Part shown: one piece after another, positions 2,470 to 21,717 of the stretch
How the letters are laid out: each line of letters opens with the position of its first letter
How positions within the stretch are numbered: position 1 is the first letter of the stretch
NCBI GenBank assembly: GCA_007376805.1
Contig: VMGX01000004.1
Coordinates: 1-48,822 of the forward strand
Length of the DNA: 48,822 nucleotides
Origin: Parcubacteria group bacterium Athens0714_16
GTDB taxonomy: Bacteria; Patescibacteriota; Minisyncoccia; Phycocordibacterales; 21-14-all-36-13
Reading direction: 5' to 3'
Made by a program: the position numbers and the translations under genes
Notes under the pieces: model-generated
Told to the model about the DNA's origin: nothing
Seen by the model: the letters and a program-made list of their open reading frames with translations, nothing else
Database searches by the model: none

Positions 2470-3180
2470 TTAAAATGTTGCTCGGAAAAACTTAGCGTCT
2501 TTCAAAGCCCACGCATCATAATTATTCAAACCATTTTTCAAAGGAATACTCAAAGAACTTTTCACGGTAGCAAAATTATCATCTGAAGATTCTATTATTG
2601 CTGTCATACTCGTCCCAGCTGGAATTTTTGTTTCTACAGTAAACTTTTGGAAGTTTTCTGGGAATTCAAATTCGTTTACAACTGACATGAAACTTCCGTC
2701 AGAATAAAGTACCCCAGCTGATTTTTCATCAAGAATAACTGTGTCTGTCGGCGAAAGAAAAGTTCTGAAAAAAGTTCCTAAAAGAAATTCATCTCTTGTA
2801 GACTGTCCCCATATTGGGTCAACACTGGCCGTTGTGCCTTGATCAAAAGTTATCCATCCAAGTTCATTTCCCCAAACTCTCCCACTTAAACCATTTAAGG
2901 TGTCTATTGTGAGAGGTAAATTTTCTGATATTTCAAAATTAATAATTCCGGGGTTAGAACAAGTTATATCTTTACAAACTTTTGCTTTATTATTTCCTCC
3001 AACAATTGCGTTAGGAGTTTCTGATTTATCAACATATCCAATCATTGCATCTCCTGAGAAGTCAAAAATATCAGTAGGTATTTCAATTTCAGCAAAACTA
3101 TTATGTATTGCTAATGTAAAAAATGTATTTAAAACAAAAACAATAATGATTATTTTTTGAATATATATATTATTTTTCAT
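2470..3180 (-). pseudogene. 5' part of a frameshifted exported protein
   Basis: Begins with a clear signal peptide (residues 1-30, Lys-rich start, hydrophobic core, ending NSFA). It continues with a beta-rich extracellular region including RVWGNELGWITFD, a segment common in exported proteins of this group. The frame ends at TAA in the context ACATTTTAATTTC. Removing one T from the T4 run restores a frame running through to 1665, giving a protein of about 505 residues. I read this as one gene broken by a single-base insertion, real or a sequencing/assembly error. Exact function unknown; a surface adhesin or structural protein is likely. Confidence 0.7.
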
Positions 3181-3186
3181 TTTTAA

Positions 3187-6100
3187 TTATTGTATTAGTA
3201 ATGTCTCAGGAGGAGTTTCAGGAGGAACCTCAATAGGGGTTTCAGGAGTAGGGGCCGTTGTTTCTACATTTACTATTCTTGTTGTACTTACAGTATTACC
3301 AGCTGTATCTGTAGCAGTATATGTAATAGTATAAGATCCTGCAGTATTTGTATCAACTGTTCCACTAATAATTAGGGCAATATCTGTATCTACATCATCT
3401 GTTACTATTGCCCCCTCTTCATTATATATATCTCCGACAATTAAAACAACAGGACTTGTTCCATTTAAAGTAATTACAGGTGGAGTTATATCAGTATTTT
3501 CAGATGGTGTATCTGACGCAGGAGGAGTTATATCTCCACCACTTGAAGTATCAGGAGTTGGAGCTTCTACTTGTTGGTCACATTTTCCAGGTTTTACACT
3601 CACTGTACCATTGTTTACATCTTGTACTTCTAGACATCCTGCTTGTCCATTTTTATCATATACAGTTACTCCAGTTGGTTTAGTTGGACTACCTATTTCT
3701 AATGTATCTACAACTAGAGCTTTCATATATGCAATTCCGTTTTCTACTTTAGTTATTATTTCGTTGAAAAATAGGCTTATTTTCGCTAAAATTTCGGAGG
3801 GCAAGCTGAAATAACCTCCCAGTGTGCTTGTAGAAGTTTCTTCTACTGATCCTATAGACCAATGGGGATTAACAAAAACCATTATCTTTCCGATTTCATC
3901 TGGGGAAGAGGAGGAATAAGATTCCAAAGCTTTACCTATGGTCATACCTGGTTTTGTTGATTTCATTGCTACTCCTGGGATATCAGAAGAGGTTAGATAA
4001 TCTCCAGCTAAAATTTCACCATTTTTAGTTGATACTTTTATTGGTACTCTTCCGATTAGAGCGATTGGTCTCAGATTTTCTTTTCCTTTTTCTCCTAAGA
4101 TCATAGCTGGTTCAGTGGATATTGTTCCCATTATTTTAGAATCATAAGGTTTTGATGTTTTTTCAACTACATATTTTCCAATAAGAGGATTTTGATCTTC
4201 TTTAATTTTTACCAAGTCTCCAGATTCAATGGATAAATCTTCAACTGTATAATTTTCTGCAATGTCTGCTCTACTTAGGCCTGTAGCTTTGTAATAAAAA
4301 TAATCAATATCAAAAGAATAGTCTGTTCCAGATGTTGTAACAATTTGGACTCTTGGTGATAAATTTCCAGATGGTAGATTTGTTGTATGGGTAGCTTTTA
4401 ACACATTATCAATATAAAATGCTATTGAAGTATAGTTTGAATTAATTACAATTTTAAATTGTTTAAATGATGATGCTTGTGCTACCCCCGTATCTGTTGC
4501 AGTTTCTATTGCTCCACTTCTCGTGATTGCATACCAATTACCACTTCCTGAAGATCTAAAATATGCTCCATTATTAACATCACCTATTAATGCAATATTA
4601 TCAGCTGTTCCTATTTGCATATTGCTTGAAGAATTAGCATCTACTTGTTTTATAGAAAATATTATAGTTAGATTTCCAAACGAACTAGGGAAAATTGGTT
4701 GGTTAGCAGGGTCCACTAGGTATAAAGTACTTCCATTGTTTGTAGTAGTTCCACTTTTCCCTTTGACTAGCCCAACTCTTCCACTTTCTGCGCTGGTATA
4801 TGTTATTGTTCCACTTCCTCCTGTTGTCCATTTCCATCCATATTGGCTGATAGTTCCACTTGATGTATTGCCTCCTATGAAATCATCCATTAACTCTGAT
4901 GTAGTTGTCGGGTCAATTCCACCTGTGGATGCAGTAATTTGTGTTGTTCCATCTGGGAATTTAAAACCACCGGTAGTTGATTCTATTACTCCGGCGACAC
5001 TTAATTTTTCTCCCGGCGCCGTCGTTCCGATGCCGACGTTGCCGTCATTATTAAAATTGACTTTCTGTAAAGCACTCGTACCAAAACCAAATGTAAACCC
5101 AATTCCATCACCTCCTGTGAAACTTATCCCTGCACCCCCATTTGTATTTAATTTAAATTGACTGCCTCCAAATTGTAAATTAGCAGTATCACCGCCATTC
5201 CCTCCTCCTATATAGAGACCGCCGAGATCGTTCTGTCTGTAACCTATGCTGGCTTTTTGTGTGCCAGCGGCATTATAAAGCGTTATTGCATTCATCAGTC
5301 CATTTGCGTCTTGGTCTCCTGGAGAAATAAATTTTGCCGTTCCAATAGCCGCCGTCTGCCCCGAGCTCAAAATCGGAACATGCAAAACTGATGTCGGCCC
5401 CGTCGTCCCGATGCCGACGTTGCCGTTATTTAAAATTGACATTACTGTTGTACTTGCAGAGTTCGTAAAGTTTGCCATTTCAGTTGCTCCCGTTCCGCTT
5501 CCCCATACACTCAACTTCGCGTAAGGCGAAGTTGTTCCGATGCCGACGTTGCCGTTTGTCTTAACATATAAACTATTTGCAGTAGCTCCACCTTCAATTG
5601 TTAAAGCATTATTTGTTCCTGCTTGTAATCCTCCTGCAAATGTAGAAGTTGCTGTTGTGCTTGTTGCATTAAAATATTCAGCTACAACTGGACCAACAAC
5701 CGAAAGTTTTGCGTATGGACTCGTCGTCCCGATGCCGAAGTTTCCACTTCCATTGAAATATCCATTGGTTGCCGTTATTTTTCCGATAACACTGTTGGCG
5801 ATTCTGAAGTCGATATTGGCCGGAGCGTTGATAATTGTTTGAGAAGTACCATCGGTTGATAATGCATAATTTGAAGCTGACATTGTAACATTTGCATTAG
5901 CTAAAGCAGGAGAGTTAGCTCCTAAAGTTCCAAATTGAAATGCTTGACTTAAAGTACTATTACCAATAATAGTTGTACCACTTACATGAAGTAAAGCTGT
6001 TGGTGTTGCCGTCCCAATTCCAACATTATTTGTGGAGTAATCATAAACCAATCCGCTTGTCTCAATTGCAAGACCGCCAGCAAATGTTGATGTCGCTGTT

Positions 6101-19961: not shown

Positions 19962-20054
19962 TTATTTTAGACAAATAATATCATATTTTAAAGATTTTTT
20001 TGAGAGTCCCAAAATACAAAAACCATTAGCAAAAGCTAACGGTTTTTGATTATG

Positions 20055-20129
20055 CGCAGTCGACCGGATTTGAACCGGCGGTCTTCTCCGTGACAGGGAG
20101 ACGTGTTAACCAGGCTACACCACGACTGC
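20055..20129 (-). tRNA. tRNA-Asp (GTC)
   Basis: Acceptor GCAGTCG, D-loop AGCCTGGTTA, anticodon loop CTGTCAC (anticodon GTC), T-loop TTCAAAT, discriminator G, no encoded CCA. Its 5' 15 nt are shared with the end of the upstream endonuclease gene. Confidence 0.95.
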
Positions 20130-20795
20130 ATTTTTAATTTTTAAATATTTTTCAAAAACTTTCTTTTTTCTATTTAAAAATAAATCACTTTTTAGATTAT
20201 CATAAATTAGTTTATATAACAACGTTGAACTTTTGACACTATATTTTAATACATATGCATTTTTCTTTGTCTTATATAAGGACCCCTCTCCAAAATTAAT
20301 ACCAGATAATTTATTTCTTAAATCTATTAAAAAACCTTTGGAGCAGGATGTAAAAGCACTGTGTATAACAAATGTCTTCGTTTTTCTGTATTTATTAACA
20401 AAACCAACCCAGACATTACCGTCTCCATCAAAATAACCCCTTATAAAATCTCCTAAATATTTATTGGGGATATCTGGTAATCTCATTGTTTTTGTTTTTA
20501 ATTCTTCCACTCCGAGTTTTCTTAAATCTTCACACACTTCCTTGCTTCCTATTTGAAGTCGAAATATTGGTCTTTCCGTAGGTTTTCTAATTCTTTTAGA
20601 AATTTTATGTTCCGAGTTAATAATTTTTTTAATTTTTTCAAGAATATTTTTATCTGTAATTTGGATTGCAAAATATTCCGAACCTCGTGAATTAACTGAC
20701 ATATAACCATCTGCCATAAAAAAACCAAGAACGTAGGCCATTTCTGGTGTCCATTTTTTGAAAAAATCTTTATTAAATTTTTTATATATTGGCAT
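20115..20795 (-). CDS. LAGLIDADG homing endonuclease overlapping tRNA-Asp
   Basis: A 226-residue protein with two LAGLIDADG helices: AYVLGFFMADGYM at residues ~20-32 and FIRGYFDGDGNV at ~113-124. The acidic residues at the ends of both helices are kept, so the active site looks intact. The last residues, AVVV and the stop TAG, are encoded by the first bases of tRNA-Asp. The gene is free-standing, neither inside an intron nor inside an intein. It is a candidate homing enzyme for a tRNA locus, possibly including the intron-bearing initiator tRNA about 400 bp away. Confidence 0.88.
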   Translation of the reverse strand: MPIYKKFNKDFFKKWTPEMAYVLGFFMADGYMSVNSRGSEYFAIQITDKNILEKIKKIINSEHKISKRIRKPTERPIFRLQIGSKEVCEDLRKLGVEELKTKTMRLPDIPNKYLGDFIRGYFDGDGNVWVGFVNKYRKTKTFVIHSAFTSCSKGFLIDLRNKLSGINFGEGSLYKTKKNAYVLKYSVKSSTLLYKLIYDNLKSDLFLNRKKKVFEKYLKIKNAVVV

Positions 20796-21204: not shown

Positions 21205-21497
21205 CGCGGGGTAGAGAAGTAGTATCTCACAAGGCTCGTTAGGGCTCATATAGTAGTAATACGATATGGAAAATCTGCCAAACTCGAGGAAACCTTTAAA
21301 ATGGCAATCTCGAGCCAAGCTTGTTTATAGTTTAAAATAGTAAATTTTAAGCATAACAAGAAGGTGTAGAGACTAGACGGTAGACACCCACAAAATGGGT
21401 GAAGGAATAGTCCAGACCACAAAATCTTAGTTGATGCGATGAAAATCGTAGTGGTAAGCATAACCTTGGGACATCGGTGCAATTCCGATCCCCGCAA
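21205..21497 (+). tRNA. Initiator tRNA-fMet (CAT) interrupted by a group I intron
   Basis: Exon 1 is 21205-21236 and exon 2 is 21459-21497. Joined, they give acceptor CGCGGGG/CCCCGCA with the C1-A72 mismatch that defines bacterial initiators, D-stem GAGA/TCTC, anticodon stem CAAGG/CCTTG, loop CTCATAA and discriminator A. CCA is not encoded. The D-loop AGTAGTA and T-loop TGCAATT show A18 and G55 in place of the near-universal G18 and U55. The anticodon stem has A-U at 29-41, so only two of the three usual initiator G-C pairs are present. Confidence 0.9.
21237..21458 (+). other. Group I intron (IC3-like), ORF-less, in tRNA-fMet
   Basis: A 222-nt intron between U33 and C34, directly before the anticodon. 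The upstream exon ends in U and the intron ends in G, as in all group I introns. The core resembles the cyanobacterial tRNA-Leu intron. P4/P5 has CTCGAGGAAACC... and AATCTCGAGCCAAGC; P7 has AGAGACTAGACGG and the returning AATAGTCC. P1 can form between exon GGCT and intron GGCT (21243-21246) using two G-U pairs. No endonuclease ORF is inside. Confidence 0.9.
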
Positions 21498-21502
21498 CAA
21501 TC

Positions 21503-21538
21503 AAACAAAATACCAGCCTTTCGGCTGGTATTTTGTTT
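21503..21538 (+). terminator. Terminator after tRNA-fMet
   Basis: 16-bp stem AAACAAAATACCAGCC with a TTT loop and a T-rich 3' arm. Confidence 0.8.
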
Positions 21539-21540
21539 AG

Positions 21541-21717
21541 ATTTTGCGAGTGAAAACGAGCAAACTGCTTTGCTCGTGTTCGGAATTGCAAGTCGGAGTT
21601 ATGTTTTTGCGAATCAAAAACAAACGAGACGGGGTCGCAAACACTTTGTATTTTAGAAATTTTATATTTCTAAAATACTTAGTGATTTGTGACCAACGAA
21701 GATCCCCGCAACAAGTT
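21541..21717. other. Structured non-coding stretch with a copy of the tRNA-fMet 3' end
   Basis: Contains hairpin CGAGCAAA-CTGC-TTTGCTCG. A long hairpin follows, with stems GGTCGCAAA/TTTGTGACC and GTATTTTAGAAA/TTTCTAAAATAC (21636-21693 region). The 14-mer GATCCCCGCAACAA at 21701-21714 exactly repeats the tRNA-fMet 3' end at 21487-21500. No tRNA or tmRNA cloverleaf could be folded by eye. Confidence 0.45.

Follow-up and report, generated by a model that had tools for sequence, protein, structure and literature searches.

A group I intron interrupts the apparently sole initiator tRNA gene of a Patescibacteria-type bacterium

Introduction

Group I introns of subgroup IC3 reside in the tRNA-Leu(UAA) gene of cyanobacteria and in the tRNA-Ile gene of Azoarcus. 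A small compact core and GNRA loops L2 and L9 are expected of introns of this type. Bacterial initiator tRNAs are marked by their first pair, C1xA72. The closest described system is the tRNA-fMet gene of Synechocystis sp. PCC 6803 and Gloeobacter, which is split by an intron according to the passage of PMC8450103 that cites Biniszkiewicz 1994. The Synechocystis intron carries I-Ssp6803I, a PD-(D/E)XK endonuclease (PMC1995217). Insertions in the 23S rRNA and tRNA genes of CPR bacteria are treated in two reviews (PMC9698310, PMC10221324), whose relevant parts single out neither the initiator tRNA nor a missing backup copy.

The intron described here lies in a stretch of 48,822 nucleotides (the window) from a host assembly (G000) of 632 kb in 19 contigs that is 89% complete. 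It interrupts the same tRNA as the intron of Synechocystis and Gloeobacter and, with the cyanobacterial site compared via a Gloeobacterales homologue (L047), sits at the same U33/C34 position, as it does in 72 other homologues. It differs from the cyanobacterial case in its Patescibacteria-type host, in its length (222 nt versus 655 nt) and in having no ORF. With the rRNA and tRNA group I introns of CPR bacteria it shares the kind of host and the intron class. The tRNA-Leu(UAA) and tRNA-Ile introns of cyanobacteria and Azoarcus, likened by description, have the same small compact core and GNRA loops L2 and L9, but another host tRNA and another site. As split tRNA-fMet genes have already been published, the added value of this analysis lies in showing how many genomes have no intact initiator.

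The interrupted gene and its intron

The locus consists of the following features.

21205..21236, + strand: 5' exon, initiator tRNA from C1 to U33 (ARAGORN on joined exons)
21237..21458, + strand: group I intron of 222 nt that ends in G 21458 and has no ORF (RF00028, E=2.9e-14; covariation across 30 homologues)
21233..21246, + strand: P1, formed by GGCU of the exon (21233-21236) and GGCU of the internal guide (21243-21246), with a U.G wobble at the 5' splice site (alignment, consensus structure)
21371..21412, + strand: P7 strands GACUA 21371-21375 and UAGUC 21408-21412, enclosing P8 and the 3' strand of P3 (sequence, alignment)
21459..21498, + strand: 3' exon, initiator tRNA from C34, no encoded CCA (ARAGORN on joined exons)

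ARAGORN called no tRNA in the unspliced stretch. When 21205-21236 and 21459-21498 were joined, it returned a 72-base tRNA-Met(CAU) with a C1xA72 mismatch, which bears out the preliminary description of the interrupted gene as an initiator tRNA. The joined tRNA also has the GAGA/TCTC D-stem of initiators, while its anticodon stem has two G:C pairs beside the loop and not three. The splice sites are 21236/21237, after U33, and 21458/21459, where the terminal G is followed by C34. The insertion is thus exactly between U33 and C34, directly 5' of the anticodon as had been proposed, and the proposed terminal G is present.

The assignment of 21237-21458 to group I was confirmed by a covariance model search, in which Rfam RF00028 matched 21227-21433 with 64.7 bits (cut-off 50; E=2.9e-14). 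The intron folds with -60.6 kcal/mol (z=-4.55 against shuffled sequence). P7, which had been pointed out, is present as two complementary strands. No plausible ORF was found within the 222 nt, the longest stop-free run being approx. 30 codons (plus strand) or approx. 70 codons (minus strand), in agreement with the earlier statement that the intron carries none. An ORF of the I-Ssp6803I type is likewise absent from it; such an ORF is a feature of the mobile members among the fMet introns and is not demanded of all members.

The structure was examined in an alignment of 30 split-initiator introns with their exon ends. Of the 62 consensus pairs, 38 show one or more double changes with pairing retained, and these compensatory changes include the exon-exon anticodon stem and the helices P2, P3, P6, P8 and P9. 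P7 is complementary but invariant across the alignment and therefore gives no covariation test. The U.G pair of P1 at the 5' splice site was present in all 29 members aligned there, and a GNRA loop was found at L2 in 28 of 29 and at L9 in 30 of 30 members. Loops of this kind are expected of IC3-type introns and give the proposed IC3 label indirect support only.

Other introns of the host genome

Three group I matches lie in the 23S rRNA gene of the host assembly. A 268-nt group I intron was also observed in tRNA-Asn(GUU) on contig C7 (L002, G000:C7:21801-22058), where it sits inside the anticodon between U35 and U36; an intact tRNA-Asn was not found in the assembly, so that the split gene is the only Asn gene found. 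A tRNA-Phe on the 7.8 kb contig C4 (L001) contains a group I intron of 233 nt at U33/G34. As the assembly has an intact tRNA-Phe on C19, and as several of its tRNA types recur on C4, the latter may be a binning error, a foreign or a mobile contig. A recent copy from another intron of this genome was considered as the origin of the initiator intron and rejected, given that neither the Phe nor the Asn intron appears among its matches and both stand apart on the tree.

Two further observations concern other genes. On the minus strand, 20115-20795 holds a free-standing endonuclease gene that matches Pfam LAGLIDADG_3 (E=2e-11). The 3' end of this LAGLIDADG gene shares 15 bases with the beginning of the tRNA-Asp gene (20054-20129). 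Behind the 23S gene, a tRNA-like stretch (L005, ~3134-3244; G000:C6:109035-109179) is split by Rfam into two matches and reads as a tRNA-Lys(TTT) with ~28 extra bases in the D-loop.

Distribution and kinship of the U33/C34 introns

Genome contigs were scanned for a group I P7 motif with G|CATAACC behind it, which yielded at least 117 stretches. Joining the exons by script gave at least 73 split initiators from other genomes and at least 25 split elongator-Met genes. All 73 further split initiators share the U33/C34 cut (among the matches listed); the search pattern demanded the terminal G, whose invariance among homologues is therefore built in. The hosts of the split initiators among these matches are mostly labelled as Patescibacteria (Nomura-, Kaiser-, Taylor-, Zambryskibacteria and others) and Omnitrophota, the latter in large number; the labels also include one Melainabacterium, one cyanobacterium of the Gloeobacterales and some Chloroflexota. 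A Burkholderiales bin (L038) and a Klebsiella bin (L094, split elongator-Met) are likely mislabelled, since their introns group among those of other lineages. The split initiator, known before from cyanobacteria, thus turns out to be common in Patescibacteria-type bacteria.

The best matches of the window intron, among those listed, are other tRNA-fMet introns, and it groups with introns of Patescibacteria. Together with the genome size of 632 kb, this grouping suggests that the host belongs to the Patescibacteria as well. In a tree of 80 introns, most inner branches of which are weak, the fMet label required 3 changes compared with a mean of 17 after shuffling, and none of 500 shuffles was as low. 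This speaks for few transfers between tRNA types.

Long introns of 624-718 nt were present in at least 13 of the split initiators, and at least 10 of these 13 contain an ORF of 109-184 aa that starts with MDTKLK (both among the matches listed). The one ORF that was searched matched PDB 2OST with E=7e-48. By this homology, the long forms would encode the same endonuclease type as the tRNA-fMet intron of Synechocystis, and so the short and long introns at U33/C34 look like one family. The window copy is a short form of that family and, as it is small and has no endonuclease gene, has probably lost the ability to move on its own. Introns of ~600-630 nt were also seen in elongator-Met genes of Moranbacteria, Chloroflexota and Peregrinibacteria (L012, L013, L025, L032, L052, L066, L078, L113); a long ORF was absent from the plus strand of these eight.

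Occurrence of intact initiator genes

The split gene was the only match to an initiator 5'-half pattern in the host assembly, and a pattern of the intact initiator anticodon arm gave chance matches only, at three mismatches. A census of 40 further tRNA genes revealed an Ile(TAT) gene and two more tRNAs with a CAU anticodon, each of which is elongator-like. The earlier view of this gene as the sole initiator candidate therefore holds across the available 89% complete assembly, in which a second, intact copy was sought and not found. Given this completeness and the division into 19 contigs, an intact copy could be missing from the data.

Other genomes were inspected for the same situation. Among the matches listed, 50 named genomes have a split gene, and in 49 of them an intact initiator was absent. 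The single exception is L191, an intact initiator with encoded CCA in the genome of L107; L191 possibly lies on a foreign contig or reflects a binning error. One-mismatch matches to the intact initiator were checked by ARAGORN and only L187 and L191 were initiator tRNAs.

Within the order of the window's host, group I introns occur in 194 of 297 genomes. A split initiator was confirmed by exon joining in 18 genomes, the host's own included; this number is a lower bound as the split-gene pattern was strict. Five pattern-only matches (L161, L166, L169, L177, L180) were dropped as they gave no tRNA on joining, and L167 was excluded from the count with its gene running off the stretch. Only one of the 18 genomes (G096) also has an intact initiator, whereas the intact pattern was matched by 230 of the 279 other genomes, some chance one-mismatch matches included (17 of 18 without intact copy; Fisher p=2e-11, kinship between genomes ignored). 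A further 49 genomes of the order matched neither pattern and may hold variants. With intact initiators missing in 49 of 50 named genomes and in 17 of 18 genomes of the order, a genome with the split gene normally has no other initiator gene.

Palindromes downstream of tRNA genes

As a separate observation, eight of the 40 tRNA genes of the host assembly are followed by an exact copy of their own 3' end of 17-21 nt, 104-169 nt downstream. Several more have shorter copies, and that of the split initiator is 14 nt long (21702-21715). About a quarter of the tRNAs thus have, at a distance of 100-200 nt downstream, an interrupted palindrome that is specific to the tRNA and ends in the copy of its 3' end. 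Most copies are preceded by the reverse complement of the tRNA end, split by one hairpin, and a second hairpin lies in between.

21500-21715; G000 contigs C1, C6, C10, C19 (L205, L209, L210, L212, L215, L219, L222): palindrome sites

A palindrome of 62-70 nt at 21632-21695 (GGGGTCGCAAACAC...GTGATTTGTGAC) has copies at C19:33760 (downstream of tRNA-Glu), C1:30929 (downstream of tRNA-Gln) and C6:111735. Similar tRNA palindromes were noticed in other genomes (L062, L020, L058, L064). A literature search found no counterpart of tRNA-specific 3'-end palindromes, and they may be more novel than the split initiator. Candidate explanations are a folded recombination site, a target duplication of integrase or casposon type, or a tRNA-like RNA.

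Discussion

The locus is best read as a self-splicing group I intron in an apparently sole initiator tRNA gene, present in its small form and kept by the need for splicing; a probability of about 0.94 is given to this reading. In the proposed mechanism, pairing of the 5' exon with the internal guide would form P1 in the folded transcript, with the U.G pair marking the cut. Guanosine would attack after U33 and free the 5' exon, which would then attack after the terminal G, and exon joining would give the mature initiator tRNA. The small intron would persist despite having no endonuclease gene because viability requires its precise splicing. Splicing activity, guanosine chemistry and essentiality are predicted here from sequence.

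The gene might be thought to encode an elongator or Ile2 tRNA, as the CAU anticodon is common to three tRNA types and merely two G:C pairs adjoin the anticodon loop where three are expected of an initiator. However, the first pair and the D-stem are those of an initiator, the assembly offered no second candidate for this function, and the two other CAU genes together with the Ile(TAT) gene can fill the other roles, which makes such an identity extremely improbable. It is slightly less far-fetched, though still very unlikely, that the split gene is a decayed and dispensable copy and that an intact initiator is located in the tenth of the genome absent from the assembly. The completeness of 89% leaves room for it, and two related genomes do hold split and intact forms side by side. 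A dispensable copy is difficult to reconcile with an intron structure that compensatory changes have preserved in diverged hosts. An intact copy is also absent from most of the genomes that have the split gene, including several rated 98-100% complete.

Under the preferred reading of a retained self-splicing intron, a broader proposal can be made, namely, that the only initiator of a whole small-genome branch needs a guanosine-dependent ribozyme step, which would be a control point tying initiation to the GTP pool. This is a speculative and highly improbable extension. For annotation, the blank ARAGORN result on the unspliced stretch means that the initiator gene of such genomes can escape standard tRNA annotation. 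The published cyanobacterial case is extended by a tally of genomes in which an intact copy was not found, and in many Patescibacteria and Omnitrophota a single putative ribozyme would stand between the genome and all translation initiation.
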